Positions 11,469-47,074 of a stretch of 64,000 nucleotides of DNA are shown here, in pieces. The stretch comes from Polynucleobacter antarcticus. GTDB taxonomy: Bacteria > Pseudomonadota > Gammaproteobacteria > Burkholderiales > Burkholderiaceae. Position 1 is the stretch's first letter, and the number at the start of each line of letters is the position of its first letter. The stretch lies in assembly GCF_013307245.1 (NCBI RefSeq), contig NZ_CP028941.1:1488001-1552000 (forward strand). The letters run 5' to 3'. The position numbers and the translations under genes were made by a program. The notes beneath the pieces were generated by a model, which worked only from the letters and a program-made list of their open reading frames with translations, had not been told where the DNA came from and did not search any database.

Positions 11469-11508
11469 TTTTTTATCTGCTTCTAATATGAGAATAAATA
11501 GGAATATA

Positions 11509-12282: not shown

Positions 12283-12287
12283 AGGAC

Positions 12288-21899: not shown

Positions 21900-21915
21900 T
21901 AATATAGCCTAAAAA

Positions 21916-25381: not shown

Positions 25382-26293
25382 GTGGAATACCCGCTTTTAG
25401 AGAAGATGATCAATGATGCCAAAAGCGAACTGCCTCTTGGAGTTGTATATCCACTGAGTATCCCAGCGCTTGAGACAGTCTTTGAGCTTATTAAAAGACA
25501 ACTATGTATTCCCATCTTAATTGGGCCAAAAGATCTCATTCACAAGCTCGCCGAAAGTAAAGATCTATCTTTAATTGGCATTGAAATTGTTGACACCCCC
25601 AATGACCCTATAGAGGCAACCAAAAAAGCAGTGCAAATGGTGAAAGAGGGCAAGCTGTTGGCCTTGATGAAGGGCTCCCTACATACTGAAGATCTCATGG
25701 GATCTATTGTGAGTCGGGATGGATTGCGCACTGCCAATAGAATCAGTCATCTATTTTTATTTGAACTGGCGCGGTACCATAAACTTATCGGTGTGAGTGA
25801 CGCAGTGGTCAATATTGCCCCGAATGCCGCACTCAAACGAGAAATACTTTCTAATAGTTTGAATGCTCTCAATAAGCTTGGAATTCAAAATGCTAAGGTA
25901 GCTATTATTGCGGCGACAGAGGTGATTAATCCTGCTATGCAATCGACTACTGATGCAAAGGAAATTGTTGATGCCCATCAGATCAACCCTATTTTTCCTG
26001 ACACAATTATTGAAGGGCCTTTTGGCTTTGACAACGCCATATCTCTAGAGTCAGCCAAAATAAAAGGTATCGATTCACAAGTGGCTGGAGATCCGGATTT
26101 GCTCTTAGTGCCAGATTTACAAGTGGGGAATATTCTTTATAAGTCCTTCATTTATATGGCCAGTGCTGAATGTGCTGGAGCTATTTTGGGCGCTCAAGTA
26201 CCTATTATTCTTACCTCTAGATCTGATTCCGTCTTCTCTAGAGTAGCCTCTACTGCGATGGCTATTTTGCTCGCTAAACCTTCTAATCATTGA
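25382..26293 (+). CDS. pta: Phosphate acetyltransferase (Pta/Ptb family)
   Basis: This 303-residue protein of the phosphate acetyl/butyryltransferase family is read from a GTG start, with AAGGA a short distance upstream. Motifs include LMKGSLHTEDLMGSIVSR, TEVINPAMQSTTDA and the C-terminal VPIILTSRSDSVFSRVAS. In sulfonate users the short Pta works after Xsc, converting acetyl phosphate plus CoA to acetyl-CoA. Its place upstream of soeABC and near xsc supports this. A phosphate butyryltransferase role is less likely, since no butyrate kinase is present. Its stop overlaps the TTG start of soeA. Confidence 0.88.
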   Translation: MEYPLLEKMINDAKSELPLGVVYPLSIPALETVFELIKRQLCIPILIGPKDLIHKLAESKDLSLIGIEIVDTPNDPIEATKKAVQMVKEGKLLALMKGSLHTEDLMGSIVSRDGLRTANRISHLFLFELARYHKLIGVSDAVVNIAPNAALKREILSNSLNALNKLGIQNAKVAIIAATEVINPAMQSTTDAKEIVDAHQINPIFPDTIIEGPFGFDNAISLESAKIKGIDSQVAGDPDLLLVPDLQVGNILYKSFIYMASAECAGAILGAQVPIILTSRSDSVFSRVASTAMAILLAKPSNH

Positions 26294-29190: not shown

Positions 29191-29843
29191 GCTCTACTAA
29201 ACAACTTGCCCTCGTTATTGATCTGAATGTTTGTGTTGGCTGTCATGCTTGCGTGACTTCCTGTAAAGAGTGGAACACTTCAGGATCCGCCGGACCACTG
29301 ACCGATCTCAATGCCTATGGCGCAAGCCCTAGCGGCACCTTCTTTAATCGCGTTCAGACCTTTGAAGCCGGCACCTTTCCCAATACTCAAACCGTCCACT
29401 TTCCTAAATCATGCTTGCACTGTGAGGAGCCCCCTTGCGTGCCCGTCTGCCCTACTGGAGCAAGCTACAAACGCAAAGAAGATGGCATTGTCTTGGTTGA
29501 CTACGATAAGTGTATTGGCTGCAGCTACTGCTCATGGGCCTGCCCTTATGGCGCTCGAGAGCTTGATCAAGAACGTCAAGTAATGACAAAATGCACTCTG
29601 TGTGTTGATCGAATCTATAGCGAAACTCTGCCTGAATCCGAAAGAAAGCCTGCCTGTGTCATGGCTTGCCCAACGAGTGCTCGTATTTTTGGCGATATCC
29701 ATGATCCAGAATCGGATGCTAGTAAAGCTATTGCCGAGCGCTCAGGATACGCCTTGATGCCAGAATGGGAAACGCAACCTGCCAATCACTATTTACCCCG
29801 ATCCATTATGGAAACGATTGAAGCGGCAAGGAGCGATAGTTAA
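29187..29843 (+). CDS. soeB: Four-cluster ferredoxin subunit, SoeB-like
   Basis: This 218-residue electron-transfer subunit carries four [4Fe-4S] cysteine groups. The first is C16-C19-C22-C26 (VCVGCHACVTSC). The others include CLHCEEPPCVPVCPTGA, CIGCSYCSWACPYGA and CTLCVDRI with CVMACP. It starts with GTG overlapping the soeA stop, and its own TAA overlaps the soeC ATG by one base. It would pass electrons from SoeA to the membrane subunit. Close relatives are DmsB and PsrB types. Confidence 0.9.
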   Translation: MSSTKQLALVIDLNVCVGCHACVTSCKEWNTSGSAGPLTDLNAYGASPSGTFFNRVQTFEAGTFPNTQTVHFPKSCLHCEEPPCVPVCPTGASYKRKEDGIVLVDYDKCIGCSYCSWACPYGARELDQERQVMTKCTLCVDRIYSETLPESERKPACVMACPTSARIFGDIHDPESDASKAIAERSGYALMPEWETQPANHYLPRSIMETIEAARSDS

Positions 29844-30778
29844 TGCGCCCACAATTCTCGATCATTTTTTTCACAACCCTCGCTGGCTTAGCTCAAGGCT
29901 TACTATTTTTTGCAGCCCTACTTAACTTATTCACCCCAGTTCTACCTACAGCATTTTTAACCCATCTTGCCTTACCGATGAGCCTAGGACTCCTTGCGTT
30001 GGGCTTAGTGGCATCGTTTTTTCACTTAGGTCACCCTGAACGTGCATGGCGTGCCGCCACGATGTGGAGAACCTCTTGGCTGTCTAGAGAGGTGATTGCG
30101 CTACCCGCACTAATAGCCATCACATGCTTAATTTATTTCTATGCCTTTATAAGTGAAGTACCTCAATGGCTTTGGCTCGCACTACTCATCATGACAATCA
30201 TTCTTTGGGTATGTACTGCCAAAATTTATCAATGCATCCGTTTTATTCAAGAGTGGTCGCACCCTTCAACCCTCACTAACTTTACCCTTTTGGGCATGAC
30301 TTCCGGCTTGATTCTTCTAGAACTGCTCCTACTTATTTGGAATAAACCGATTGAGGGCTTAGAGGATAGTGGTTTATCGATCGCTATATTTTGTCTCTTA
30401 TTTGTATCTCTTAATCTGAAGCTATGGATCTGGCGTCGTAACAAAGGTCTGAAACCAATCTCTAATTTAGCCACAGCGACTGGGATTAAAGGTAACCCTA
30501 TTCGACAAACCTCGATGGGATTGATGGGTGGCAGTTTTAATACTCGAGAATTTTTTCATCATCAAACAGATCGTGTTATCAGCAACATTCGTAAGATCAT
30601 TCTTTTGTGTGCTTACGTACTACCTATGATCCTCATTGCAATTAGTATAAATACGATCAATATCGGTGTAATCGCTTTAGTACTATTTATTCATATAGCG
30701 GGCTTACTTGCTGAAAGATGGATGTTCTTTGCGGAGGCAAATCATCCCCAAAACTTGTACTACCAAAGGGTTTCTTAA
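29843..30778 (+). CDS. soeC: DmsC-like membrane anchor subunit, SoeC-like
   Basis: This 311-residue protein has about eight membrane helices. It contains the DmsC-family segment FFHLGHPERAWRAATMWRTS (about residues 60-79). It anchors the molybdoenzyme and exchanges electrons with quinone. The order A-B-C with overlaps matches SoeABC. A distinguishing feature is the long cytoplasmic loop near residues 210-245. It ends 16 bases before the nitroreductase gene. Confidence 0.88.
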   Translation: MRPQFSIIFFTTLAGLAQGLLFFAALLNLFTPVLPTAFLTHLALPMSLGLLALGLVASFFHLGHPERAWRAATMWRTSWLSREVIALPALIAITCLIYFYAFISEVPQWLWLALLIMTIILWVCTAKIYQCIRFIQEWSHPSTLTNFTLLGMTSGLILLELLLLIWNKPIEGLEDSGLSIAIFCLLFVSLNLKLWIWRRNKGLKPISNLATATGIKGNPIRQTSMGLMGGSFNTREFFHHQTDRVISNIRKIILLCAYVLPMILIAISINTINIGVIALVLFIHIAGLLAERWMFFAEANHPQNLYYQRVS

Positions 30779-33382: not shown

Positions 33383-34369
33383 ATGGCTGAAAGCCCCTCA
33401 TCAAGTGATTTATCCTGTTTTCAACCTGATCAAATGGTTACCCTGCATTCCGCTTTCCCAGAATGCAAGGGATTTGCCGATTTTTCGATTCCATCTTTTA
33501 GTAATGCATCAGACCTAGTTCCAGAATCAGACCCTGCCTATCAACTGAATCCTGAGGCTAGTTTATCTATCTTGGCTGGATTTGCCTATAACCGCAGAGT
33601 GATGTTGCAAGGGATGCATGGCACTGGAAAATCTACCCATATTGAACAAGTAGCGGCACGTCTCAATTGGCCTTGCTTAAGGATTAACCTCGATGGGCAA
33701 ATTACCCGCATGGACCTCATCGGTAAAGACATGATTGCCATTGAAGATGGCAAACAAATCACCCGCTTTCAGGAAGGTTTAATTCCCTGGAGTCTGCAGC
33801 GCCCAATCGCACTGATCCTAGATGAATATGATGCTGGTCAGCCAGATGTCATGTTTGTAATTCAGCGCATGCTGGAACGTGAGGGACGACTTACTCTCCT
33901 CGATCAAAATAGAGTAATCAAACCCCATTCTGCCTTCCGAATATTTGCTACTAGCAATACCGTCGGTCTAGGTAATTGGAATGGTCTATACCAAGGTACC
34001 CAATTACTGAATCATGGACAAATGGATCGGTGGGATATCGTTGCTGCACTCGACTACCTAGAGCCAATTGAAGAACAAAAGATTTTGCTGGCAAAAGTTC
34101 CCGAGCTCTCTTCTGAACAATCAGGCCAAATGATTGCACTTGCCAATCTCACTAGAAAAGGATTTGAAGCAGGCGATCTATCCACACTCATGTCTACCAG
34201 AACCCTCATTACTTGGGGTGAAAATTGGCGCATTTTCAAAGATCTTCAGCTTGCATTTACCTTAGCATTTTTAAATAAATGTGAAACTGAAGAAAAAGCG
34301 TTGGTTGCAGAATACTTTCAACGCTGCTTCTCCAGTGAACTCTATTTAAAACAGTCGTCAACTTCATAA
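33383..34369 (+). CDS. CobS-like AAA+ ATPase (MoxR/CobS group)
   Basis: This 328-residue AAA+ protein has Walker A GMHGTGKST (about residues 77-85), Walker B ALILDEYDA (about residues 138-146) and the sensor segment FRIFATSNTVGLG. The sequence resembles CobS, the ATPase subunit of aerobic cobaltochelatase. No CobN chelatase subunit or other cobalamin gene lies in the window. It is 16 bases upstream of a CobT-like VWA protein. Such ATPase/VWA pairs also act as activating chaperones of metalloenzymes (as CbbQ/CbbO do), which is more plausible beside xsc and soeABC. It is annotated from sequence similarity only. Confidence 0.85.
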   Translation: MAESPSSSDLSCFQPDQMVTLHSAFPECKGFADFSIPSFSNASDLVPESDPAYQLNPEASLSILAGFAYNRRVMLQGMHGTGKSTHIEQVAARLNWPCLRINLDGQITRMDLIGKDMIAIEDGKQITRFQEGLIPWSLQRPIALILDEYDAGQPDVMFVIQRMLEREGRLTLLDQNRVIKPHSAFRIFATSNTVGLGNWNGLYQGTQLLNHGQMDRWDIVAALDYLEPIEEQKILLAKVPELSSEQSGQMIALANLTRKGFEAGDLSTLMSTRTLITWGENWRIFKDLQLAFTLAFLNKCETEEKALVAEYFQRCFSSELYLKQSSTS

Positions 34370-34385
34370 GCATTAGACGGGCCCT

Positions 34386-36116
34386 GTGCAAAGCCAAACT
34401 CACAACGATGTCGAGCAACAACAGCAATATGGCGCCATCATTAGATCCCTATCGGGGAATGTGACCGCCCAAATCAGGGACTGGCAGTTGTTTTACCGAG
34501 CCGAACCATATGGGAGCATAGCGCCTCACCTGCATTTAGATAGTTTAAAAACAGACTGGACTGAGCCAAGAGGAGTGCTTGATGGTATTGCTATGCGCTT
34601 ACGATACTCTGACGTCAAGTTACATCAATCACTAAGCCCCGAGGGCATGGTGGAATCACTTGTATTTGAAGTATTAGAGCAAATCCGAGTGGAAAGTATT
34701 TGCCCGGATAGCTATAAGGGTAGTAAGCAAAATATGCAGACCCAATTTGTAGCTTGGATGCAGCAATTTATTGCAACTGGGGGAGTAGAAGGCAGTATTG
34801 GGCTCTTGTTAATCACCGTATTTTCAACAGTATGGATGAAGCTAAACAGCCATGAAATCCCACAACTCTTACAAGATATTGTGGAGGCTACTCGCGCCGG
34901 CATTGCAGATGGCATGGGAGGCTTGCTAGTTGAGCTTAAAAGACATCGAAATAAGCAATTAGCTTACGCAAAAATATCCAACGAGATAGTTAAGCTTGTT
35001 GCCCAGCTGATCGATGAAGAATATCGACATAATCCCAGTATTCGAACAAAACGAAAGCAGCACAGTAGCGCTTTTCTAAAAATTGAATGGGTGCCGCCGC
35101 AGAAAAGCAACCCTGCAATAAGTACGACATCTCCCGGTCAATCCCTCGTTGAAAAAAATCATTTCCTTAAGCAATCTCTCGGTAAATATCACGTCTTCAG
35201 CTCAGCTTACGATACCGAGATTGAAGCAAAGAAAAAGATCAGACCCGCACAGTTAGCTATTTATCAGGAAGAGTTGAACTGCGCAATAGCTGCCCAAACT
35301 ATTCCCTGGGCAAAACTCACACGCCTATACCAACAAATTTTTTTTAGATCCGTTCCTAAAAAATGGCAAATCACTGAGTCTGAAGGATTGCTTGATCGAC
35401 GTTATTTAATCCGTTCTGTCACGTCTCCATTACAACCCGCTCTTAATAAGCAACTTTCTAAAGATATTGAGATATGTGCAAAAGTTGCCATTCTCATCGA
35501 TTGCTCCGGCTCCATGAAAGAGCAGCGCACCCAAATTGCTTGCAGCGTAGATGCCCTAGTAAGGATCCTAGAGCAGGCAGGCATTCAAACTGAAGTGCTT
35601 GGCTACAGTACTAATAGTTGGCAAGGTGGCAGACCCTTTAAAGAGTGGCGGAAAGGCGGGCAGGAAGCAAATCCTGGGCGCCTAAATGAACGAGCCCATT
35701 GGATCTTTAAAGATTTTAAGACCAACTGGCGAAGATCAAGGGCTGGTATTGCAGCGCTCTTAAGGCCTGAAATTTATGCTGAAAGTGTTGATGGGGAGGC
35801 ACTGTTATGGGCAGCAGAACGTTTACAAAAGAGCGATGCCAATAAAAGCTCAAATAAAAAGCTTATTCTTTTTTCAGATGGCTGCCCCATGGATCGCGCT
35901 ACGATTGAGGCTAATGGTGAAGAATTTCTGAAAAATCATTTACTACAAGCAGTGACCTGGTGTCAGCATCAGCCTCATCTAGAATTATGGGGGTGTGGCA
36001 TCGGCGAAGAGCTACGAGCACATTTTAAAAATAGATTGAGTTGGGATTTAAGTAAAGACAATACAACCGAACGACTTATTCACTGGGCCAAAGAGTTTAA
36101 ATCGAAAATTGTCTAG
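34386..36116 (+). CDS. CobT-like protein with C-terminal VWA domain
   Basis: This 576-residue protein, probably read from GTG 34386, has a CobT-like N-terminal region and a C-terminal von Willebrand A domain. The metal-binding MIDAS motif is VAILIDCSGSMKEQRTQ near residue 370, with LFSDGCPMDRAT later. With the CobS-like ATPase it should form an ATPase/adaptor pair that remodels a client, by metal insertion or release of inhibitors. The client is unknown; CobN is absent here. Its stop overlaps the convergent GntR gene stop by three bases. Confidence 0.83.
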   Translation: MQSQTHNDVEQQQQYGAIIRSLSGNVTAQIRDWQLFYRAEPYGSIAPHLHLDSLKTDWTEPRGVLDGIAMRLRYSDVKLHQSLSPEGMVESLVFEVLEQIRVESICPDSYKGSKQNMQTQFVAWMQQFIATGGVEGSIGLLLITVFSTVWMKLNSHEIPQLLQDIVEATRAGIADGMGGLLVELKRHRNKQLAYAKISNEIVKLVAQLIDEEYRHNPSIRTKRKQHSSAFLKIEWVPPQKSNPAISTTSPGQSLVEKNHFLKQSLGKYHVFSSAYDTEIEAKKKIRPAQLAIYQEELNCAIAAQTIPWAKLTRLYQQIFFRSVPKKWQITESEGLLDRRYLIRSVTSPLQPALNKQLSKDIEICAKVAILIDCSGSMKEQRTQIACSVDALVRILEQAGIQTEVLGYSTNSWQGGRPFKEWRKGGQEANPGRLNERAHWIFKDFKTNWRRSRAGIAALLRPEIYAESVDGEALLWAAERLQKSDANKSSNKKLILFSDGCPMDRATIEANGEEFLKNHLLQAVTWCQHQPHLELWGCGIGEELRAHFKNRLSWDLSKDNTTERLIHWAKEFKSKIV

Positions 36117-36832
36117 GTAAGTAGTTCATTAAAGTATTCATGATTTGTTGTATTTAGCGTAGAAATTCTCCACTCGAGTGGTTCATCTTGAATATTGATC
36201 GCCACTCTACGAATCTGCAGCACTGGAGACTCTGGCTTCAGCTTTAGCCATAAAGCATGCTGCTTGCCTGCTAAAGTAGCACGTACTCTTTCATGCGTTT
36301 TAACAACGGACTGCCCATAGCGCATTTGATATAGCTGGTAAATACTACCTTCCCGTTTTTCAAATGTACTCTGAGTAAGACCTTTAAATCTCTTCTTATC
36401 TAGCGTGATGTGATCAATCATTACGCACTCATCCACCAAGAATAAGCGGTTGACAACTCGCCAAACAGGAGCGCCTTCTTTCAAACCCAGCTTATGAGCC
36501 TCTTCATGACTAGCTAATGCGCCATCAAAAGACACTGTTTCAACACGTGGATAGATTTTTTTATCTACATCCCATCGAACCACATGAAAAAAATAATACA
36601 GTAAGCGTTTTGCATCATGTTCAGCAATATAGGTGCCTTTTCCCTGTCGCCTAACAACAATACCTTCGGAGACCAGCTCATCAAAAGCTTTACGCAAGGT
36701 ACCAATAGATACATCCATCTCCTTGGCAAGATCTTTTTCTGATGGGAGAGGTTCTCCCATCAGAAATCGACCTCTGACTAAATCTTCGGTGATCTTACTT
36801 TTAACTTCTTGATAAGCTGCCAAAGATTTCAT
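36113..36832 (-). CDS. GntR family regulator with UTRA domain (HutC type)
   Basis: This 239-residue regulator has an N-terminal GntR winged helix (FLMGEPLPSEKDLAKEMDVS; GTLRKAFDELVSEGIVVRRQ) and a C-terminal UTRA effector domain (PVWRVVNRLFLVDECVMIDH; PVLQIRRVAINIQ). It lies 7 bases after suyB as the last gene of comC-suyA-suyB, so it probably controls sulfolactate use and its own operon. Candidate operators are the TTGCAA palindromes upstream of comC. Confidence 0.9.
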   Translation of the reverse strand: MKSLAAYQEVKSKITEDLVRGRFLMGEPLPSEKDLAKEMDVSIGTLRKAFDELVSEGIVVRRQGKGTYIAEHDAKRLLYYFFHVVRWDVDKKIYPRVETVSFDGALASHEEAHKLGLKEGAPVWRVVNRLFLVDECVMIDHITLDKKRFKGLTQSTFEKREGSIYQLYQMRYGQSVVKTHERVRATLAGKQHALWLKLKPESPVLQIRRVAINIQDEPLEWRISTLNTTNHEYFNELLT

Positions 36833-36839: not shown

Positions 36840-38012
36840 CTATGCAGACTCATACAAACGGGTCATGACAAATTCGCGATGGCCCAAAATCTCAGCTGCA
36901 GTTAACTCACCATTTGCTGTTCTTAAGAGTGCGTCTATGAGCTTATCACCAGCGCTATCCAGAGTTTCCTCACGGCGCAAGATGCCGGATACATCGACAT
37001 CAATGTGTTCGGACATAGTGCGGACTGTCTTTGAATTAGCGCATAGTTTAATTACCGGCAATATCGGATTACCAATGACATTACCCTGCCCAGTTGGGAA
37101 GAGGTGAGCAGCAAAACCAGAAGCTGCGCACAGGGTAACCATCTCAGCTGCAGCAGAGGATGAATCCATAAAATGTAAACCTGGAATCAATGGAGTTTCT
37201 GCCTTATCTAATACTCCGTCGACAATGCACTTTTTACCAATCTTTTGAATATTTCCGAGTGCCTTCTCTTCAATAGTTGTCAGGCCTCCAGCAATGTTTC
37301 CTTTGGTTGGCTGTGAGTCAGACAAATCACTGGTCTTATTCTTCTCAATAACATCTTGGTAGCGATCAAACATATGACGAAATTTAGCCTTAACTTCAGG
37401 GGTGCGGCAACGTGCCTCAACCAAATGCTCACCGCCAGTAAGCTCCGTAGTTTCACCAAACACTAAGGTAGCGCCAATTTCATATAACTTATCAAATGCA
37501 TTTCCGACAGATGGATTAGATCCACAGCCAGATGTCGTATCGGATTCACCACACTTGGTAGAAACCCATAGCTCAGATAATGGAGCCGAAACTCGCTGTT
37601 GCTTGGAAGCGTGCTTCATCATGGCATAGGCCGCTTTGCTGGCACTGGCAATGGTTGAAGTATCACCATTACCGCTGATCCAGAATCCTTCGACAGGTTT
37701 ACCAGATTTTTTAATCCCATCAACAACCTTGCCAGTCCATTGCGACTCAATACCAATAACCACGACACCTGCAACGTTAGGGTTGCAACCTGCACCAATT
37801 AACGTTCTAAAGTGGAGATCAAGGTCTGCGCCGAACTGCAGACGCCCATAGGGATGTGGGATTGCAATAGTCCCTTTAATATTATTTGCCACCGCTTCAC
37901 ATGCAGCATTGGATAGATCATCTAATGGCAAGATGATGACATGATTGCGAATGCCCATACGCCCATTCTCACGGCGGTAACCCATAAAACTAGCTTCTTT
38001 TAAATTAATCAT
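36840..38012 (-). CDS. suyB: (2R)-Sulfolactate sulfo-lyase, large subunit SuyB
   Basis: This 390-residue protein of the UxaA/altronate-dehydratase family matches SuyB length. Motifs are [20 protein letters not shown] at the N-terminus, [20 protein letters not shown] near the middle, and [20 protein letters not shown]. With SuyA it cleaves (R)-3-sulfolactate to pyruvate and sulfite. Altronate dehydratase is the alternative, but a separate small SAF subunit, an adjacent ComC-type dehydrogenase and the lack of uronate genes favour SuyB. The gap to suyA is 40 bases. Confidence 0.88.
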
Positions 38013-38052: not shown

Positions 38053-38334
38053 TTACCAACGCTTAGTTTTGACATTTTGAACATGGGTATGCTCCCCTTT
38101 TTTAATTGGGGCAACTACCTTACCAATATCAACGCCATACTTAATGATGGTGTCGCCAGACTTAAGGTCTTGCAACGCGATCTTGTGTCCGATTGGAATA
38201 TCACTTTCAGATCTGATGTTCACTGTGCTATCACCCTCCATGACCCAGCCCACCAAATCCGTACCAGCTTTAATACCCTCAACCACGATAACGCCAACAA
38301 CGTCTCCTGGCTCATGCACGACAAAATGAATCAT
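38053..38334 (-). CDS. suyA: (2R)-Sulfolactate sulfo-lyase, small SAF subunit SuyA
   Basis: This 93-residue SAF-domain protein contains FVVHEPGDVVGVIVVEGIKA and IPIGHKIALQDLKSGDTIIK, the typical UxaA N-terminal unit found as the separate SuyA subunit. It partners SuyB, encoded next. It lies between comC (gap 31 bases) and suyB in one operon. The size fits SuyA. Confidence 0.88.
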   Translation of the reverse strand: MIHFVVHEPGDVVGVIVVEGIKAGTDLVGWVMEGDSTVNIRSESDIPIGHKIALQDLKSGDTIIKYGVDIGKVVAPIKKGEHTHVQNVKTKRW

Positions 38335-38365: not shown

Positions 38366-39373
38366 TTACTTCCAAGATCTCGTAATACCATCTTGTATCT
38401 CCCCAACTACTTGCTCGGTTACCACAACGCCAGAGGCTAGAGCTTGACTGCGCTGCTTAAAACGTCTTTGACCTGGTAATCGGATGCCTTTATCAGCTGT
38501 CAGTACCTTTAAAAAGTCGTTAAATCTATCTTGATATTTCGCCCCACCAGAAAGCCCTGGGTCAATAGTTATTAATAACTGACCAATTCGAGGTCGATTG
38601 CCGCGGGCATCAAAAAAGGAATCTGCCTCATATGAAAAGCGGCTGCCCGATAAACCAACTACGAGCAACTCGATCATCAATGCAAGCAAGGCACCTTTAT
38701 CACCACCCAAAGGAACCATCAACCCTTTCAATCCTTCCTGTGGATTAGTAGTAGGTTGACCATCTGCAGTGAGGGCCCACCCCTCAGGTATGGACTCCCC
38801 TTTCTTAGCGGCGACGAGTAGCTTACCGCGTGCTACTGCTGAGAGCGACATATCGATCACAAGAGGATCACCATTGGTATTAGGAAAAGCCGCAGCGATA
38901 GGATTAGTTCCAAAAATAGCCTTGCTTCCGCCAATCATTGGCATGGCAGCAGGGGTATTACCAAACAGCAGGGAGATATAGCCCGCACGGGCAGCAGCCT
39001 CAACAAAATGTCCAGCCACCCCAAAGTGATGGCTATTAGTCACAGCAACCAATCCTATTCCAGTCTTGGAGGCTAGGTTGACTGATAAATCAGTCGCAAA
39101 ACGTAGGGCTGGAAAAGCTAGTCCATCACGAGCATCGACCAATGCACCAGAACTCTTGTAAGGGCGGACTTTAATTTTTGGTGCGAGCTCAATGCGGCCA
39201 TTGATGGCATGACTGGCATATTGAGAAACACGAGCTAATCCATGAGACGCCAAACCATCTAATTCAGCCAGAGCTAAAAATTGAGCAGTCTCCAGGGCAG
39301 CTTTTTCACCAATACCTGCCGCCTCTAGACCTTTCGAGGCCAACTTAACCATGTCTTGATAAGAAAGATTCAA
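38366..39373 (-). CDS. comC: Ldh2-family dehydrogenase, ComC-like (R)-sulfolactate dehydrogenase
   Basis: This 335-residue member of the malate/L-lactate (type 2) dehydrogenase family has LAELDGLASHGLARVSQYAS near the N-terminus, the VTNSHHFGVAGHFVEAA motif, and IFGTNPIAAAFPNTNGDPLV. ComC interconverts (R)-sulfolactate and sulfopyruvate with NAD(P)H. It is the first gene of comC-suyA-suyB-gntR. The context supports ComC over ordinary lactate or ureidoglycolate dehydrogenase. The partner SlcC, which handles (S)-sulfolactate in other bacteria, is not in the window. Confidence 0.83.
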   Translation of the reverse strand: MNLSYQDMVKLASKGLEAAGIGEKAALETAQFLALAELDGLASHGLARVSQYASHAINGRIELAPKIKVRPYKSSGALVDARDGLAFPALRFATDLSVNLASKTGIGLVAVTNSHHFGVAGHFVEAAARAGYISLLFGNTPAAMPMIGGSKAIFGTNPIAAAFPNTNGDPLVIDMSLSAVARGKLLVAAKKGESIPEGWALTADGQPTTNPQEGLKGLMVPLGGDKGALLALMIELLVVGLSGSRFSYEADSFFDARGNRPRIGQLLITIDPGLSGGAKYQDRFNDFLKVLTADKGIRLPGQRRFKQRSQALASGVVVTEQVVGEIQDGITRSWK

Positions 39374-39614: not shown

Positions 39615-40604
39615 ATGTTTAAAAAGGTAATTTTTAATAATTTACGTAATACATTGATTTCCCTTGGGATCTTGGCGAGTATTGCTGCACCACTGACTAC
39701 TCAAGCTCAATCATGGCCAGATAAACCGGTTAAGCTCATCATTCCATTCGCACCTGGTGGAACGACCGATATTCTTGGGCGAATTCTGGCGCAACAAATG
39801 ACAACCGTACTGGGTCAAAACGTCATCGTTGAAAATAAAGGTGGTGCCGGCGGCAATATTGGCGCAGAAATAGTAGCGAATGCGCCGCCAAATGGTTACA
39901 CATTATTGCTAGCCTCCGGCAGTATGATGACTGTTAATCCGCATCTCTATCAGAAGTTACCTCTCAATTACATGACGGATTTGACCTACATAACGACTGT
40001 AGCTGGCGGCCCCATGTTGGTCTCTGTTAACCCAAATCTACCAGTCAATAATCTAAAAGAGTTAATTGCCCTAGCAAAAACCAAGCCACTGACTTTTGGT
40101 TCAGCTGGTATTGGCAGTCAAGTGCACATGGCTGGTGAAAATTTCAACTATGCAGCAGGTATTAATGCAACGCATGTGCCGTATAAAGGTGAAGCTCCAG
40201 CAATGAACGATTTAGTGTCTGGCCAAATTGACTTTATGGTTGGTAACCTTCCCGCAGCAGCTGGATTTGCAAAAGCTGGAAGAATTAAAGCGCTAGCAAT
40301 AACGAGCAGCAAGCGTGTCACTCAACTACCAGAGGTACCAACAGTTTCTGAAGCAGCCATCCCTGGATTCGTTAATCTTGGCTGGTTTGCATTAGCAGCG
40401 CCATCTGGAACGCCTAAAGCAATCGTAGAAAAAATTTCTGCGGCAACCCAAAAAGCTTTGGAGTCAGATGCAATGCGCAAGAGTCTTGAGCTTAACGGTT
40501 TGACTGGCATTATTACTAGCCAAAAAGATCTGGAAGTACAGATTAAAAATGAGTCGGCCAATTGGGAAAAAGTGATTAAGGCGCGCAATATTAAGGCGCA
40601 ATAA
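39615..40604 (+). CDS. Bug/TctC-family periplasmic binding protein
   Basis: This 329-residue protein has a signal peptide (RNTLISLGILASIAAPLTTQ then AQ) and Bug motifs WPDKPVKLIIPFAPGGTTDI and VIVENKGGAGGNIGAEIVA. It is divergent from comC-suyAB and convergent with the TSUP exporter gene. Sulfolactate or another carboxylate is a likely ligand. As with the protein at 23378, no TctA/TctB genes accompany it. The ribosome site GGAGAAG lies a few bases upstream of the ATG. Confidence 0.9.
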   Translation: MFKKVIFNNLRNTLISLGILASIAAPLTTQAQSWPDKPVKLIIPFAPGGTTDILGRILAQQMTTVLGQNVIVENKGGAGGNIGAEIVANAPPNGYTLLLASGSMMTVNPHLYQKLPLNYMTDLTYITTVAGGPMLVSVNPNLPVNNLKELIALAKTKPLTFGSAGIGSQVHMAGENFNYAAGINATHVPYKGEAPAMNDLVSGQIDFMVGNLPAAAGFAKAGRIKALAITSSKRVTQLPEVPTVSEAAIPGFVNLGWFALAAPSGTPKAIVEKISAATQKALESDAMRKSLELNGLTGIITSQKDLEVQIKNESANWEKVIKARNIKAQ

Positions 40605-40646: not shown

Positions 40647-41366
40647 TTAGAACTGCCTTAACACCAATAGTAGTCCTGAAAATAGCAAAATCAGCCCATA
40701 TATGCGTTGGACACCTGCCATACTCATCTTAGAATGCATGCGAGTACCAAGCCACATGCCTAGACCCATAGGAAAAACTAAGGCGATAGCAAGACCAAAT
40801 ATGTTGGAACTCAAAAGCAAACCGGTCACAATCATAAAAATGAGTCTGAGGAAAGTCAGCATCAAAATAGCGAATGCCATAGTGGCTCTCACTACATGAG
40901 GATTTGCAATTCGCATTTGCAAATATGAAGCATAAATTGCGCCACCGGTAGCGAAGAGCGCTGTAAAAATTCCACCGGCTATCCCAAAAGGTAAAGCCCA
41001 CCACTGATTAATTTTTTTATGCACATCAGATTTTCGAATCATGAGCACTCTTACCCCATTGAGGGTAGCAAAACATCCTAAGATCGCTAGTAGTGGTTCG
41101 CTTGGAGCGGAGAGTAATAATGTTATGCCGATCAGCATACCAAGCAAAGTGAAGGGTAGTATCCAGATTAGCTCGGCCTTATCCGCCTCCCCCGACAAAC
41201 GTCGACCCAAATATAGCGATGCAACAATATCGATTAGCACCATCACTGGAACTATCGATTGAAGTGGATAGAATTGCGCCAAAATGGGTACAGCAACTAA
41301 GGATGCGCCGAAACCAGAAATTCCAAAAATAAAATAGGCAATGAAGATGGCCAATGAAGCCATCAC
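40647..41366 (-). CDS. TauE/SafE (TSUP) family exporter, second copy
   Basis: This 239-residue membrane protein has the TSUP pattern: helix 1 with FGISGFGASLVAVPIL and a second repeat with LPFGIAGGIFTALFATGGAI. Family members export sulfite, sulfoacetate or C2/C3 anions. The start is GTG 41366 or ATG 41363. It lies 32 bases after the reductase flavoprotein gene on the same strand, so it is the last gene of that operon. Linking an anion exporter to a fumarate-reductase/fumarase-like operon is unusual and hints that the pathway releases an inorganic anion such as sulfite. Confidence 0.88.
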   Translation of the reverse strand: MMASLAIFIAYFIFGISGFGASLVAVPILAQFYPLQSIVPVMVLIDIVASLYLGRRLSGEADKAELIWILPFTLLGMLIGITLLLSAPSEPLLAILGCFATLNGVRVLMIRKSDVHKKINQWWALPFGIAGGIFTALFATGGAIYASYLQMRIANPHVVRATMAFAILMLTFLRLIFMIVTGLLLSSNIFGLAIALVFPMGLGMWLGTRMHSKMSMAGVQRIYGLILLFSGLLLVLRQF

Positions 41367-41398
41367 AAGTGAAGTAGGTTCAATGAACTCAAAAATAA

Positions 41399-43129
41399 TT
41401 AAGCCTCAACTAGGATCGTCTCACCTGGTTTGACTAAATTAAATAGTACTGGCCTATTTTCAATACGTAATTGATCTTGGTCTAACTTCACGGCAGTGAA
41501 ATAGGAAGTTTCTAAATCCCCTGGTTTGGGAAAGTCCTCTCGATAATGAGCGCCTCGCGAGTTTTCACGGGCAATCGCAGCTTCGGTAACAGACTTGCTC
41601 ACCAAGATAAGATTACGTAGGTTCATCCAATCTTGCCAAGTGAGGTTATAAGCACGCTGCAGGTCTCCAACACCCATCTGGTTAAGAGATTGTTCTAGTG
41701 CATCTAGTTTTACTTTAGCCCGAAGTAAACTTTCCTCAGTGCGAGAGATACCAACATCATTCCACATACAGTCTGCAAGTTGATCGCGAATGACCTCGAT
41801 GTCGCCTGGTGCACGAAGTAAAGGAGCCTCATGTGCCTGAATACTAGCGGCAACCTCTTCCATATTGCATGGCGCTAAGGTTTGATTCGTCACCCACTTT
41901 GCCATCACATCACCGGCAATGCCCCCAAAAACTGTAGAGTTAGCAACCCCATTGCCACCTAAGCGGTTTGCGCCGTGAACACCACCTGTATCTTCACCTG
42001 CAGCAAAAAGGCCTGGTAGATCGGTGCTGCAATCTTTGCGGAATACCAAACCACCCATCATGTAATGGGCTGTTGGCACTACCTCTACTAGATCTTGAGC
42101 TAAATCAAAGCCACTATCTGCACAGCGCTCCACCATACCTTTGAATAATTTGCGGACGTTCTCAGGGCCTAAGTGACTCATCTGAATATAAACACCGCCA
42201 TTAGGTGTGGAACGTCCTGCTCGAATTTCTGAATTAATAGACCGCGAAACAATATCACGCGTAGCACGCTCATTGCGTGAGTCGTAATTACCCATGAAAC
42301 GCTCTTTATCGCCATTTAGTAAATATCCACCAGCACCGCGCAAGCCCTCCTCCAATACCGTGCCTGTCATGCGCGTACCTGGTCCAGCTAGTAGACCAGT
42401 AGGATGAAACTGCACCATCTCCATATCTCTAAGAACCAAGCCAGCACGCAGGGCCATGGCTAAGCCATCACAACTTTTATCACCCGATGGAGTGTGATAC
42501 TTGTACATGGTTGGACCACCACCTGTTGCCAGCAGAACGGCTTTGGCTCTTACCAAGGAAAACTCACCCGTTTGCATATCAATCATCAGTACTCCAGCCA
42601 ATGACTTGCCGTCAGCGCTATGAATTAACTCTATAGCGCGATATTCTTCTAAGCGATGAATGCCGCGAGCCCAGACTTGCTCAGCTAATCGATTGATAAT
42701 TTCAATACCGGTTAAATCACCTTTATGCACCGTTCGATCAAATGTTTGACCTGCAAATGCTTTTTGATGAATAGTGCCGTCTGGATTACGATCAAAGAAG
42801 CAGCCTAACTCATTTTCAAGTTCACGAATACGCTCAACAGAAATGCTGGCTAATGTCCAAGCCAAATCCTGATCACATAACCATTTTCCACCCTCAATCG
42901 TATCCATAAAGTGCCGCTCAACCGAATCACCTTCTGCAAGTGCTACGTTGTACCCGCCCTGCACCATACGCGTACAGCCACACTTACCTAAAAGACCTTT
43001 GACAGCAATCGTAATATGTAAATTTGGATTTGTTTGATGGGCATGCAACGCAGCAAATAGTCCTGCACCGCCAGAACCTAAAATCAAAATATCAGTTTCT
43101 ATAGTCTTCATATTAGTTGGTGCATTCAT
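41399..43129 (-). CDS. Fumarate reductase/succinate dehydrogenase-like flavoprotein without covalent-FAD histidine
   Basis: This 576-residue flavoprotein has the FAD motif ILILGSGGAGLFAALHA, the HPTGLLAGPG loop, active-site candidates in TAHYMMGG and HGANRLGGN, and an Arg-rich RNERATRDIVSR segment. Where FrdA/SdhA have the His that bonds FAD covalently (SHTVAA), this protein has C52 (GCTRMVQGG), so FAD is probably held non-covalently. Dedicated Fe-S and membrane subunits are encoded upstream. It should oxidise succinate or a related dicarboxylate, or reduce the unsaturated partner. Its ATG overlaps the stop of the hydratase beta gene. It is likely an accessory enzyme and not the main SDH. Confidence 0.85.
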   Translation of the reverse strand: MNAPTNMKTIETDILILGSGGAGLFAALHAHQTNPNLHITIAVKGLLGKCGCTRMVQGGYNVALAEGDSVERHFMDTIEGGKWLCDQDLAWTLASISVERIRELENELGCFFDRNPDGTIHQKAFAGQTFDRTVHKGDLTGIEIINRLAEQVWARGIHRLEEYRAIELIHSADGKSLAGVLMIDMQTGEFSLVRAKAVLLATGGGPTMYKYHTPSGDKSCDGLAMALRAGLVLRDMEMVQFHPTGLLAGPGTRMTGTVLEEGLRGAGGYLLNGDKERFMGNYDSRNERATRDIVSRSINSEIRAGRSTPNGGVYIQMSHLGPENVRKLFKGMVERCADSGFDLAQDLVEVVPTAHYMMGGLVFRKDCSTDLPGLFAAGEDTGGVHGANRLGGNGVANSTVFGGIAGDVMAKWVTNQTLAPCNMEEVAASIQAHEAPLLRAPGDIEVIRDQLADCMWNDVGISRTEESLLRAKVKLDALEQSLNQMGVGDLQRAYNLTWQDWMNLRNLILVSKSVTEAAIARENSRGAHYREDFPKPGDLETSYFTAVKLDQDQLRIENRPVLFNLVKPGETILVEA

Positions 43130-43737
43130 GATTCAATTCCTAGACTTTTTAATACATCCATCTTATTGCGAGCAACATCACTCTTCACTTCCTGATAAAT
43201 ACTCCCGCCATGACTATCCATCGCCACCAGCAATGGGCCAAAGTCCCGAATTTTAAAGCGCCATAAAGACTCTGGATTCAGATCATCCATATCAACGTCT
43301 TCAATTTGCTCAATCCAAGTAGTTTCCAAAGCAGCAGTACCCCCAATGATGGCCAAGTAAACGCCGCCCAACTCTGAAAAAGCGGCGGCTGAAGCTTCAC
43401 GCATACCGCCCTTACCTACGATGATCCGAACACCATTTTGTGTCATGAGCGGTCGTGTAAAACGCTCCATACGATCTGAAGTGGTAGTGCCAATACAAAT
43501 AGCTTGGTAGCCAGCAGGAAACTCGGTACTCGGTACTACCTTACGAACATTAGGAGCAGTATGAATAACCGCATGACCAGACAAGTCAAACTTCGTCTTG
43601 CGATCATGATCAAACATGTGTATCTGGGTCGCATCCCGAATACCAAATAAAGTATTTTGCAATGTCACCGTATCATTAATTTTTAGGCGACGGATATCGG
43701 CTTCACTAACCGGCATAGGGAGATCATAATGAGCCAT
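43126..43737 (-). CDS. Class I fumarase-type hydratase, beta subunit
   Basis: This 203-residue subunit matches the C-terminal swivelling domain of class I fumarase or tartrate dehydratase TtdB. Motifs include GTTTSDRMERFTRPLM, IIVGKGGM and a C-terminal GPLLVAMDSHGGSIY. Several positions differ from FumA (for example the usual Gly-Pro before TTS is Gly-Thr here), so the substrate may differ from fumarate. It lies 9 bases after the alpha gene. Confidence 0.86.
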   Translation of the reverse strand: MAHYDLPMPVSEADIRRLKINDTVTLQNTLFGIRDATQIHMFDHDRKTKFDLSGHAVIHTAPNVRKVVPSTEFPAGYQAICIGTTTSDRMERFTRPLMTQNGVRIIVGKGGMREASAAAFSELGGVYLAIIGGTAALETTWIEQIEDVDMDDLNPESLWRFKIRDFGPLLVAMDSHGGSIYQEVKSDVARNKMDVLKSLGIES

Positions 43738-43746
43738 TATTTTTTC

Positions 43747-44622
43747 CTAAAAACCATACTCAACACCACTAGGCGTCAATGTGGCACGCGCACGGCGCGC
43801 TGAATGGCACTGCATGTTGACTGCTACAGGGTTCATCGTAATGTGGGTGGCCGCCAGTTCAACATGTACTGCAAAGGCTGTCCCATCTCCACCTAAGCCT
43901 TGAGGTCCAATACCCAGGCGATTCACAGCCGCACTTAATTCTTTCTCCAGTTTGGCGCCCTCTTCATCTGTACATTGACTCCCAATTGGCCTAGTTGCAG
44001 CCCGCTTAGCCATAGCAACGCATTGATCTGATGTGCCGCCTACCCCAACCCCAACAATTGTAGGGGGGCAAGTTTTCCCGCCTGAAGCCACGACGCTTTC
44101 AATCACGAACGCCTTCACACCTAAGATTCCTTCCGCAGGAATCGCCATCTTTAGATAAGAATTATTTTCAGAGCCACTCCCCTTAGGAATCATTTCAATC
44201 TCAACTGATTCATCATCTGCACTAAAGTCCAAATGAATCGCTGGCATATCGATGCCGCAAGATGTGTGGTTGTTTTTACGCGTAATCGGATGGACTACCG
44301 AAGAGCGCAGTGGATACTCAGTAGTAGCCCGCTCACACCCTTTACGAATGGCAGCTTTCAGTGCCACTCCATCAAATTCAACATGACGACCAATTTTCAC
44401 GTTATAGATTGGCAGCCCCGTATCCTGACAAAGCAAATTGTCTTCCCGCTCAGCTACTGCAATATTGGTCACCATGGTTTGCAAGACAACCTGAGCGCGT
44501 GCATCCGTTTCTGACTTATTCAAGCGGTCAATCCCTTGCTTTACATCATCGGGTAGTTTTTTAAGTGCACGAATATACAACTCTTTGCATACCTCTTCCA
44601 CCAAATTCATCTGTAGTTGCAT
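43747..44622 (-). CDS. Class I fumarase-type hydratase, alpha subunit
   Basis: This 291-residue Fe-S subunit corresponds to the N-terminal part of class I fumarase (or TtdA). Cluster cysteines appear in NLLCQDTGLPIYNV, SGGKTCPPTIVGVGVGG and NMQCHSARRARA. It hydrates a C4 unsaturated dicarboxylate, such as fumarate or mesaconate, or dehydrates tartrate/malate. Lying between membrane-anchor and flavoprotein genes of a reductase-like complex, it probably processes the product of that complex. Confidence 0.88.
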   Translation of the reverse strand: MQLQMNLVEEVCKELYIRALKKLPDDVKQGIDRLNKSETDARAQVVLQTMVTNIAVAEREDNLLCQDTGLPIYNVKIGRHVEFDGVALKAAIRKGCERATTEYPLRSSVVHPITRKNNHTSCGIDMPAIHLDFSADDESVEIEMIPKGSGSENNSYLKMAIPAEGILGVKAFVIESVVASGGKTCPPTIVGVGVGGTSDQCVAMAKRAATRPIGSQCTDEEGAKLEKELSAAVNRLGIGPQGLGGDGTAFAVHVELAATHITMNPVAVNMQCHSARRARATLTPSGVEYGF

Positions 44623-44633
44623 CTTGCCCCCGC

Positions 44634-44993
44634 TTAATCTGCTAATGCTAAAAATAACAGACCAGAAATGATCGAAATCACAATGGCTGCCTGAATCCAG
44701 CCTTTACGCAATCCTCGCCATGCGCCAAATTCAATCATCAACAAGCGCACACCCCCTATCAAATGGATGGTCAACAAGGTAACTAAACCCCACTCTCCAA
44801 CTTTTACCATCCAAAAATCTGTTAGCTTTAAATGCCTATCCAATTCAGCTGCGCCAAATAATGATTGGGATAGCAGATAAAAGTGAATTGGTAAAAAGCA
44901 AGCCAATAGGAGTCCCGACACACGATGCGCCATGTAAATCAAATAAGATGAATGGGACTTAGCGCGGCGATCTAATGTGGGTCTATTACTCAT
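44634..44993 (-). CDS. Membrane anchor subunit of the reductase-like complex (SdhC-like)
   Basis: The product is about 119 residues from the ATG at 44991-44993, which overlaps the upstream stop (ATGA). It has three helices, with possible heme or quinone ligands in MAHRVSGLLLACFLPIHFYL and LLTIHLIGGVRLLMIEF. A longer frame upstream is not used, because it would overlap the neighbouring anchor gene. It anchors the flavoprotein/Fe-S subunits in the inner membrane. Confidence 0.8.
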   Translation of the reverse strand: MSNRPTLDRRAKSHSSYLIYMAHRVSGLLLACFLPIHFYLLSQSLFGAAELDRHLKLTDFWMVKVGEWGLVTLLTIHLIGGVRLLMIEFGAWRGLRKGWIQAAIVISIISGLLFLALAD

Positions 44994-45382
44994 TGCCCTA
45001 CCCCGCCAGTGAACACCCCAATGACGGCAGTCGTTCCCAATACAAGAATGAGGCAAGCCAAGATCCATGGTAAGACAGTAAGCTTATCGGATTGCGGAAA
45101 ATTTTCTCGCAGAATATTAGCGACCCCAATAGGGGCATGCACAAAACAAGCCAGTACAAATACTTCGTAAAAAATTGCAAACAGCCAGTTACCTTGGGTG
45201 CGACCTAGAATCTCGCCAGCAGTCAAGCCACCTCTAATTGCATAAAACATAATCAGTAAATGGACCGCCACGCACAACCCCAGCACCATCGCACTAATCC
45301 GTTGCGCATACCAAAGCTTGGCTTGTAAGACTGCAGTACTGCTCACTACTGAAGGCATTACTGCACTCACAACTTGCCCCAC
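44990..45382 (-). CDS. Membrane anchor subunit of the reductase-like complex (SdhD/FrdC-like)
   Basis: This 130-residue membrane protein has three helices, with histidines in LCVAVHLLIMFYAIRGG and LACFVHAPIGVANILREN. It overlaps the Fe-S subunit gene (45367) by 16 bases and the next anchor gene by 4 bases. Both anchors together suggest a two-anchor, quinone-linked complex of the SDH type. Confidence 0.8.
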   Translation of the reverse strand: MGQVVSAVMPSVVSSTAVLQAKLWYAQRISAMVLGLCVAVHLLIMFYAIRGGLTAGEILGRTQGNWLFAIFYEVFVLACFVHAPIGVANILRENFPQSDKLTVLPWILACLILVLGTTAVIGVFTGGVGQ

Positions 45383-46098
45383 TTAGTACCTCGTACCGCA
45401 GCCCTAGCAACCAATTTTTTTAAGCCTGATATCCCTGCTGTAGGTGCTAATTGCTTAGGGCAACGCTCTGTACAGCTGCCATGCGTATGGCAAGTATGGC
45501 AACCTGCATCACCAGCAACCGCTCGCAATCGATCTAGCTGCTGCACATCGCGCACATCATTCGTCAAGGTCCAAGCGCGATTTAACGCTGCAGGACCTAA
45601 ATAATTTGACCGACTCGCCACAACATCACACGAGGCATAGCACACTGCACAACCAATACACTCAATACCTGCATTGGCTAATTGACGCTCCTCAGAGTCA
45701 GGTCTTACCTTGGCAAAGTCATCGTAACGGGTTTGCTCACCCTGAAAAAAACCAACCGCTCCCTTCCACTTATTAAAGAACTCACGCATATCTGTAGCAA
45801 GATCTTTAATAACAGGTAGATTATTTAGGGGCGCGATCTCTAACGAGTCGCCCTCAACAATTTTCGCTACATGAGTTCGGCAGGTCCAGCGAGCAACGCC
45901 ATTGACTGTCATAGCGCAGGAACCGCACATTCCAACACGACAGGCAAAACGATAGCTAAGGGTTGGATCGAGCTTTCTTTGTATAAAGGTCACGACATCC
46001 AATACTGTTTGATTGGAGTTGCGTGGCACTAGATACTCAACAAATTCACCTTGTTCAGTACCTCGCCAAACTTTGACTTTGAGGGTGGGTTCAGACAT
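45367..46098 (-). CDS. Fe-S subunit of the reductase-like complex (SdhB/FrdB-like)
   Basis: This 243-residue protein has a [2Fe-2S] N-terminal domain (CRVGMCGSCAMTVNG with a later C in RWTCRTHV) and a C-terminal domain with CIGCAVCYASCDV and CHTHGSCTERCPKQ. This is the normal three-cluster pattern of SdhB/FrdB. It is the first gene of the operon sdhB-like, two anchors, hydratase alpha and beta, flavoprotein, TSUP. The order differs from the usual sdhCDAB, again suggesting a specialised set. A LysR gene is divergent 88 bases away. Confidence 0.88.
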   Translation of the reverse strand: MSEPTLKVKVWRGTEQGEFVEYLVPRNSNQTVLDVVTFIQRKLDPTLSYRFACRVGMCGSCAMTVNGVARWTCRTHVAKIVEGDSLEIAPLNNLPVIKDLATDMREFFNKWKGAVGFFQGEQTRYDDFAKVRPDSEERQLANAGIECIGCAVCYASCDVVASRSNYLGPAALNRAWTLTNDVRDVQQLDRLRAVAGDAGCHTCHTHGSCTERCPKQLAPTAGISGLKKLVARAAVRGTKWGKL

Positions 46099-46186: not shown

Positions 46187-47074
46187 TTGCCTATGTCAAG
46201 CATTAAAGTCCTTAAAAACTTCCTCGCAATCACACGCCATAAAAGCGTGGCCGCAGCTGCGAGGGAAATTGGGCTCACTGCTGCTGCTTTAGGCCAACAG
46301 ATACAACAGCTCGAAAATGATATTGGATTAGAGCTATTTGATAGAACCAAACGTTCCCTGACATTAAATCGATATGGCCAAGACTTAATAGAGTCTATTA
46401 CTGAAATCGTTGCCCACTATGAATCTTTGGGCTCAAGCTTTAAATCTGAACTCAGTGGCAGTATTGTGCTTGGGGCTCTCGTCTCAACGCTAATGGGGGC
46501 TTTTGGCCAAACTGTAAATGAACTCAAGCAACTCTATCCAGAACTCGATATCAAACTCATTGCTGGTCTTTCCAGTAACTTCTTGGATCAGGTCATCGAT
46601 GGAAGTCTTGATGCCGCAATAGTGACTGAATCACCTTACGCGCTCCCTCAACATGTTCAATGGACAGAGTTATACACCGAACCTATGGTGTTAATTTATC
46701 CCAATCTAAAGAATAGAAATAAAAAGGTATCTGACTTGCGGCCTGAAAATCTACCGTTTATTCGATTTGAAAGAAACACATGGACGGGTCACTTGGTTGA
46801 TCAAACTATTCGAGCTAATAAATTGATCATTAAAGAAGGCATGGAACTCAACTCAGTTGAGGCGATTATTGAACTTGTTAGACAAGGCCTTGGATATTCG
46901 ATCGTGCCTAAATTAGCTAACATTGCTTGGTCGCAAGATCGCCAACTCATCATTCAAAATCTTCCTGGAAAAGCCATCTTTCGCAAGGTAGGTCTCTTAG
47001 AGCGTAAAAAACATAGTCGCCAAAATATTACTCAAGTGATCAAGCAACACTTTCCATCACAAACTGCCAAATAG
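46187..47074 (+). CDS. LysR family transcriptional regulator
   Basis: This 295-residue LysR protein has an N-terminal helix-turn-helix (HKSVAAAAREIGLTAAALGQ; LGLELFDRTKRSLTL is similar to the segment seen here) and a periplasmic-binding-like effector domain. The start is TTG 46187, six bases after AAGAAG, or ATG 46193. It is divergent from the reductase/hydratase/TSUP operon and most likely activates it in response to the pathway substrate. LysR regulators usually bind the shared 88-base promoter region; no clear T-N11-A pair stood out. Confidence 0.9.
   Translation: MPMSSIKVLKNFLAITRHKSVAAAAREIGLTAAALGQQIQQLENDIGLELFDRTKRSLTLNRYGQDLIESITEIVAHYESLGSSFKSELSGSIVLGALVSTLMGAFGQTVNELKQLYPELDIKLIAGLSSNFLDQVIDGSLDAAIVTESPYALPQHVQWTELYTEPMVLIYPNLKNRNKKVSDLRPENLPFIRFERNTWTGHLVDQTIRANKLIIKEGMELNSVEAIIELVRQGLGYSIVPKLANIAWSQDRQLIIQNLPGKAIFRKVGLLERKKHSRQNITQVIKQHFPSQTAK

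Follow-up and report, generated by a model that had tools for sequence, protein, structure and literature searches.

A seven-gene operon on the minus strand of a 64,000-nucleotide stretch of the Polynucleobacter antarcticus genome (contig NZ_CP028941.1, positions 1,488,001 to 1,552,000; hereafter the window) probably encodes the first steps of 3-sulfopropionate catabolism, built as a sulfonate copy of the succinate–fumarate–malate steps. 3-Sulfopropionate is the sulfonate analogue of succinate, and its dehydrogenation and hydration lead to sulfolactate via 3-sulfoacrylate. From sequence comparison we propose that the flavoprotein of the operon, FrdA, is a 3-sulfopropionate dehydrogenase, that its two-subunit, class I fumarase-type hydratase (FumAB) is a 3-sulfoacrylate hydratase, and that its TSUP/TauE protein is a sulfite exporter. 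In this route 3-sulfopropionate would be taken up, probably via a TctC/Bug-dependent carrier, and the membrane-anchored FrdAB complex would convert it to 3-sulfoacrylate, with the electrons passing to quinone. The two-subunit [4Fe-4S] hydratase would then add water onto C2 of 3-sulfoacrylate to give (R)-sulfolactate directly. SuyAB, encoded next door, would split this into pyruvate and sulfite, a chemistry known for the family, and the sulfite would exit through the TSUP protein or undergo oxidation inside the cell. The initial annotation had described a LysR-controlled reductase/hydratase/TSUP operon beside a sulfonate island. An open reading frame check of the window found the seven operon genes where it had put them (40647–46098), with a divergent LysR gene, and the island is borne out by Xsc (1062.6 bits, cut-off 676.4), SauS (739.7 bits, cut-off 600) and a SuyB-like protein that shares 74.9% identity with a UxaA-family protein encoded alongside hpsN/hpsO in Cupriavidus pinatubonensis HN-2. 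The latter likeness suggests the SuyAB assignment; the galactarate dehydratase model gives the SuyB-like protein 147.7 bits against a cut-off of 730.85.

To place the operon among its relatives, we took the best 80 loci from a scan of genome contigs, a list biased to the window type because it is ranked by likeness to the window FrdA, and added 14 plasmid and 12 further genome stretches. Gene content of these 106 loci, which are not de-duplicated by species, was mapped with reference proteins by tblastn. Homologous operons are present in Proteobacteria, Rhodococcus and haloarchaea, and the closest in named records, among the matches listed, are from Polynucleobacter. The six enzyme genes lie in the same direction within 9 kb at 82 of the 106 loci, so their grouping is not chance; some of the remaining 24 lie on short contigs. 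Based on the hydratase, the loci fall into clade 1 (67 loci; the window, many Betaproteobacteria and some Methylobacterium) and clade 2 (24 loci; including Paracoccus, Sulfitobacter, Pseudomonas MPC6, M. nodulans and Cupriavidus P-10), with 15 loci lacking a FumA call.

The linkage of this operon with SuyAB points to sulfolactate as the hydration product, and thereby to 3-sulfopropionate as the substrate. SuyAB is found nearby at 34/67 clade-1 loci, 0/24 clade-2 loci and 2/15 loci without a FumA call. Contig ends truncate many of the loci; at those with full flanks (7 kb or more to either side) the counts are 26/44, 0/21 and 1/3, with an identity threshold for SuyB that misses the haloarchaeal protein of locus L092 (35%). 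The operon, SuyAB, SlcC and ComC form one gene run at loci such as L011, L029, L044 and L061. Among 151 genomes of the window's own genus, FrdA occurs in 64 and SuyB in 72; both occur in 59, while 5 have only FrdA and 13 have only SuyB (Fisher p 6e-23, not corrected for kinship), and four of the five FrdA-only genomes are less than 90% complete. The two genes share a contig in 53 of the 59 genomes, at most 10,081 bases apart start to start, and lie on different contigs in the other six. Xsc is present in 32 of the 151. We also examined 61 operon-bearing genomes, comprising 49 hand-picked from the 80 contig loci (the remainder being L003–L010 and 23 other, mostly shorter loci) and 12 of the 14 FrdA-bearing genomes of a phylum-wide sample. 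SuyB is encoded in 42/45 of those with a clade-1 hydratase, 5/15 of those with clade 2 and the single one without FumA. Either SuyB or Xsc is found in 58 of the 61 (neither in G571, G575 and G499), and Xsc in 10 of the 13 genomes without SuyB, a figure that has no phylum base rate for Xsc to set beside it.

Exchanging one carboxylate of succinate, fumarate and malate for a sulfonate gives 3-sulfopropionate, 3-sulfoacrylate and sulfolactate, respectively. Iron-sulfur hydratases bind the carboxylate and hydroxyl of one carbon, so the hydroxyl is expected at C2. Malate-like handedness would then give (R)-sulfolactate, because the R/S label flips when sulfomethyl replaces carboxymethyl, and it is R-sulfolactate that SuyAB cleaves according to passages of PMC12421959. 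In the window, unlike in several relatives, SlcC is missing from the interval that separates ComC from the receptor gene, which would fit direct formation of the (R) product. Hydration at C3 by the clade-1 hydratase of the window was considered as a leading reading and rejected, given the SuyAB linkage.

FrdA itself carries an unusual signature. We aligned 92 sequences, those of 91 loci and the window, and number residues as in mature E. coli FrdA. All 92 retain His232, Arg287, His355 and Arg390, which we take to be the catalytic residues of the E. coli enzyme. In all 92, however, the flavin-linking His44 is Gly and Thr244, which presumably acts at the substrate carboxylate site, is Glu, and the loop ahead of position 244 is lengthened and carries a basic residue before the Met/Ile/Leu-Thr-Gly step. 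The same Glu-Glu-Gly is found in FrdA loci outside the alignment, including those of Haloarcula and Rhodococcus, whereas Thr occupies position 244 in the organism's own SdhA, its own third homologue, E. coli FrdA and a Gemmatirosa homologue. We suggest that proteins with this signature form a subfamily remodelled at one end of the substrate; in itself the signature does not prove a sulfonate substrate. FrdA scores under the cut-off of every one of the best 25 of 31 matching NCBIfam models, the highest among the models listed being TfrA (524.1, cut-off 718); TIGR01812 gives 447.4 (cut-off 567.3). An AlphaFold model of FrdA from 28 sequences has a mean pLDDT of 73.5, but several flavin and substrate loops (45–63, 238–244, 250–256 and 382–393) are mostly below 50, and the model was therefore not used for any reading.

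Both the signature and the SuyAB co-occurrence bear on the route put forward in the initial annotation, in which sulfosuccinate is dehydrogenated to sulfofumarate and water added at the sulfonated carbon yields oxaloacetate and sulfite. Its frame of dehydrogenation, hydration, sulfite loss and export is retained here. Sulfosuccinate as the substrate and a hydratase that itself releases sulfite are less likely, because none of SuyAB, ComC and SlcC would be required in that route, whereas SuyAB accompanies the operon much more often than its base rate (SuyB in 16 of 397 genomes of a phylum sample, against 42 of 45 examined clade-1 genomes) would predict. While the chemistry is sound, the dicarboxylate-type catalytic residues are kept in FrdA and the hydratase, and a TSUP gene lies within the operon, the oxaloacetate form leaves the linkage with SuyAB, SlcC and ComC unexplained; a form in which SuyAB splits sulfomalate would also suit the gene order. 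In addition, sulfosuccinate keeps both carboxylates, whereas the Thr244-to-Glu change and loop insertion would alter one carboxylate site. No known gene set for sulfosuccinate was found for comparison in the open-access literature, and overall we regard sulfosuccinate, in either form, as an unlikely substrate.

The operon is also a second complex II/fumarase-type set rather than the core one, as the genome, a single contig of 2.15 Mb, holds elsewhere an SdhA-like open frame of 607 aa (C1:983243) as well as an open frame for a class I fumarase of 548 aa (C1:355449), both separate from the operon. The initial annotation had held that the operon would be the core set if the genome had no other succinate dehydrogenase (SDH) or fumarase, and these two genes settle that point. 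A third FrdA homologue at C1:338816 is NadB-like by our reading. We consider it very unlikely that the operon is an extra Krebs-cycle or anaplerotic set for succinate and fumarate, or for mesaconate or tartrate, that lies near sulfonate genes by coincidence. In addition to the separate genes, such a role is at odds with the sulfite-type exporter gene inside the operon, the loss of Thr244 in every aligned FrdA and the frequency of SuyB in clade-1 genomes. Some observations do favour it: the hydratase alpha subunit passes the NF004885 'fumarate hydratase' model (308.2, cut-off 276), though it misses the cut-off of the tartrate dehydratase model, and one anchor passes the SDH anchor model TIGR02970. 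Furthermore, passages of PMC12421959 describe an induced Paracoccus cluster, which from its P. versutus layout we infer to be the present operon, and its authors see it as possibly Krebs-cycle-linked.

The model matches just described count against 3-sulfopropionate catabolism, as do several other observations. The Paracoccus cluster was induced on sulfofucose, in the same passages of PMC12421959, and is matched here by layout, not by sequence. The linkage with SuyAB is only partial, and in a phylum sample of 397 genomes, with only three or four candidates scored per genome, FrdA is found in 14 and SuyB in 16, with SuyB in only 5 of the 14 FrdA genomes (G000, G061, G358, G287 and G375). At 10/44 clade-1 and 8/21 clade-2 loci with full flanks there is no Suy, SlcC, ComC, TSUP, YeiH or sulfite oxidase marker, though SuyB is encoded elsewhere in the genome for all ten of these clade-1 loci. 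Sulfite oxidase/dehydrogenase or YeiH-type exporters adjoin some homologues, but only 11 of the 106 loci have YeiH in the vicinity and 8 have sulfite oxidase. Sulfonate islands, moreover, are able to collect unrelated pathways.

The direction of flow also has to be weighed. The operon could serve another sulfonate feeding sulfolactate metabolism, or it could run in reverse, with sulfolactate dehydrated and then reduced to 3-sulfopropionate as an electron sink while the TSUP protein exports the latter. Beside homologues, SuyAB, sulfite oxidase and YeiH-type exporters favour sulfite release over reverse flow, and the named host organisms are mostly aerobes. A TauE of another species is named a probable 3-sulfopropionate exporter in passages of PMC11489063, so TSUP need not mean sulfite. 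The His44-to-Gly change suggests a non-covalent flavin, and covalent linkage is described as raising the flavin potential in passages of PMC5773532; its loss could therefore favour reduction over oxidation. Both points speak for reverse flow and weigh against degradation of 3-sulfopropionate. Loss of His44 is less telling, however, because the organism's own NadB-like third homologue likewise lacks it and L-aspartate oxidase holds its FAD non-covalently, according to the same source. Taken together, we judge these alternatives improbable and prefer 3-sulfopropionate catabolism.

Sets in haloarchaea and Rhodococcus extend the picture. On plasmids of Natribaculum and Haloarcula (L092 and L129), adjacent genes encode FrdA, FrdB, a protein annotated as argininosuccinate lyase, two SuyAB-like members of the UxaA family and TauE, without FumAB; the Haloarcula set also includes a transhydrogenase and a member of the Ldh family. 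Neither FumAB nor anchors were detected at the two haloarchaeal loci. It is possible that the argininosuccinate-lyase-like protein acts as a non-orthologous hydratase in these sets. XcbC of coenzyme M synthesis makes sulfoacrylate. In Natribaculum, the lyase-like protein scores above the cut-off of the ArgH model (323.3, cut-off 279.5) and also matches XcbC, below the cut-off (260.4, cut-off 575). The grouping of FrdAB, lyase-like protein, SuyAB and TauE again points to sulfolactate as the product, and hence to 3-sulfopropionate. In R. jostii RHA1, homologues of FumB, FumA, FrdA and FrdB are accompanied by those of ComC, SlcC, SuyB, SuyA and YeiH within ~27 kb (35–61% identity); no anchors were detected at the Rhodococcus locus. 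Elsewhere, FumAB was not found at L075 and L080 though their flanks have room, and the P. pantotrophus DSM 11072 locus has two thirds of FrdA, FumAB, YeiH and NIPSNAP, while FrdB and anchors were not found there. Same-genus FrdA copies of G108 and G113 each contain one internal TAG, possibly through decay or sequencing error.

The two hydratase clades differ at many otherwise fixed positions in alignments of both subunits. Gln66 of alpha, in the CQDTG motif, is Gln in 67/67 clade-1 sequences and Gly (17/24) or Ala (7/24) in clade 2; Thr86 of beta is Thr in 74/74 clade-1 and Ala in 24/24 clade-2 sequences, and beta Arg89 and Lys109 are retained in both clades. The clade-2 enzyme may form sulfolactate of the opposite configuration, or may hydrate C3 to release malonate semialdehyde and sulfite. 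A CoA-acylating methylmalonate-semialdehyde dehydrogenase like that of MPC6 (at least 55% identity to its protein) is found near 5/24 clade-2 and 0/67 clade-1 loci, and these five loci are possibly a SuyAB-free variant. The five operons (L070, L084, L091, L145 and L148) also have amidohydrolase or NIPSNAP genes in four cases. Pfam scans of 20 neighbouring proteins from four clade-2 loci gave no clear linked pathway. A 541-aa thiamine pyrophosphate (TPP) enzyme (e.g. L083, 11742–13367) occurs at 25/67 clade-1 and 4/24 clade-2 loci; none of the 25 models listed reaches its cut-off, and our guess is a single-chain sulfopyruvate decarboxylase. Tentatively, and with somewhat less than even confidence, all of these sets can be viewed as one 'sulfo-TCA' module, in which a distinct complex II subfamily would pass electrons from 3-sulfopropionate to quinone, three alternative hydratases (the two fumarase-type clades and the haloarchaeal argininosuccinate-lyase-like protein) would follow, and SuyAB or Xsc would serve desulfonation.

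Table 1. Genes of the operon and of the adjoining sulfonate block, in window coordinates.
Feature	Position	Strand	Matches and basis
Divergent LysR regulator	46187..47074	+	PF00126, PF03466
FrdB/SdhB-like iron-sulfur subunit, 243 aa	45367..46098	-	PF13085 (Fer2_3), Fer4; TIGR00384 182.4 bits, cut-off 88
SdhD-like membrane anchor, 130 aa	44990..45382	-	PF01127 (Sdh_cyt) 20.9 bits, below cut-off 25.8
SdhC-like membrane anchor, 144 aa as listed	44634..45068	-	TIGR02970 57.6 bits, cut-off 52.3; PF01127
Hydratase alpha, class I fumarase type, clade 1	43747..44622	-	PF05681 (Fumerase); TIGR00722 and NF004885 over cut-off
Hydratase beta, TtdB/FumA C-terminal type	43126..43737	-	PF05683 (Fumerase_C); TIGR00723 137.8 bits, just under 145.15
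FrdA/SdhA-like flavoprotein	41399..43129	-	PF00890 (FAD_binding_2), PF02910 (Succ_DH_flav_C)
TSUP/TauE exporter	40647..41366	-	PF01925 95.6 bits, over cut-off
TctC/Bug-type solute receptor, proposed uptake	39615..40604	+	PF03401; BugT-like genes in many related loci
Ldh_2 family dehydrogenase, ComC-like	38366..39373	-	Best NCBIfam match NF040650
SuyA-like small subunit	38053..38334	-	Weak match to galactarate dehydratase N-terminus; similar small genes before SuyB in related loci
SuyB-like subunit of (R)-sulfolactate sulfo-lyase	36840..38012	-	Likeness to C. pinatubonensis HN-2 protein
GntR-type regulator downstream of SuyB	36113..36832	-	NCBIfam GntR families, none listed over cut-off

The operon has the make-up of a complex II, with the flavoprotein of the FAD_binding_2 and Succ_DH_flav_C families, an iron-sulfur subunit and anchors in one operon, one anchor being below its cut-off. 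Adjoining genes overlap or sit 9, 11 or 32 bases apart, and the LysR start is 88 bases from FrdB. The true start of the SdhC-like anchor is probably further downstream than listed because it overlaps the SdhD-like gene. Hydratase beta is under the cut-off in all eight NCBIfam models listed. The match of the ComC-like gene to NF040650 (L-sulfolactate dehydrogenase), the top of five models listed, is 219.8 bits and under the cut-off of 500, and a Pfam scan of the SuyA-like protein gave no match.

Further genes of sulfonate character lie elsewhere in the window. At 20370–23322, SauS and an acyl-CoA-ligase-family gene that occupies the SauT position (best model under cut-off), followed by a Bug-type receptor at 23378–24349, look like sulfoacetate use. 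A molybdenum oxidoreductase, an Fe-S protein and a DmsC-type anchor of 966, 218 and 311 aa, lengths that are SoeABC-like, lie at 26290–30778, next to a Pta-type gene and not far from Xsc, and this three-gene set is a candidate for SoeABC-like cytoplasmic sulfite oxidation. Between Xsc and the SuyB block, at 33383–36116, are genes for an ATPase-like and a large protein, CbbQ/CbbO-like by our reading. Another TSUP gene lies at 9937–13571 together with an ABC transporter set whose receptor is of the NMT1 type, adjoined by biotin-dependent carboxylase-type parts at 13645–15662.

Sources of 3-sulfopropionate are described in passages of PMC11489063 as homotaurine and, in some Firmicutes, sulfoquinovose-derived dihydroxypropanesulfonate (DHPS). 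The same passages, from 2024, give bacterial 3-sulfopropionate degradation as unreported apart from a thesis by J. Mayer (Konstanz), in which Roseovarius nubinhibens ISM converts homotaurine via 3-sulfopropanoate and sulfoacrylate to sulfolactate. They also state that Bilophila uses 3-sulfopropionate as an electron acceptor, by a mechanism called unclear in passages of a 2026 review (PMC12890257). P. pantotrophus NKNCYSA, a different strain from DSM 11072, is reported to degrade homotaurine, and Cupriavidus necator H16 converts homotaurine to 3-sulfopropanoate. We found no assignment of genes to the steps of 3-sulfopropionate consumption in the open-access literature, and a named gene set would let the fate of this compound be tested in genomes and metagenomes. 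If correct, our reading would mean that complex II and fumarase have been re-used on a sulfonate, and would give reason to re-annotate 'succinate dehydrogenase' and 'fumarate hydratase' genes in such clusters.

In comparison with known systems, the Roseovarius route has the same metabolites in the same order, and the passages of PMC11489063 name no genes for it. The window complex resembles E. coli complex II (FrdABCD/SdhCDAB) in its four subunits, Fe-S subunit, two anchors and catalytic Arg and His, and differs in having Gly for His44, Glu for Thr244 and a loop insertion with a basic residue. Similarly, the hydratase shares the alpha and beta domains and the CQDTG and GKGGM motifs of two-subunit class I fumarases and TtdAB, but shows clade-specific changes in both subunits and a sulfonate context. 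XcbC shares the argininosuccinate-lyase superfamily with the haloarchaeal lyase-like protein; for the one from Natribaculum, the ArgH model gives the higher score. Finally, homologues of the SuyAB/SlcC/ComC module of Chromohalobacter, Paracoccus and Cupriavidus adjoin the operon, except for SlcC in the window; the difference is that sulfolactate would here come from 3-sulfopropionate, and not from DHPS or sulfosugars.

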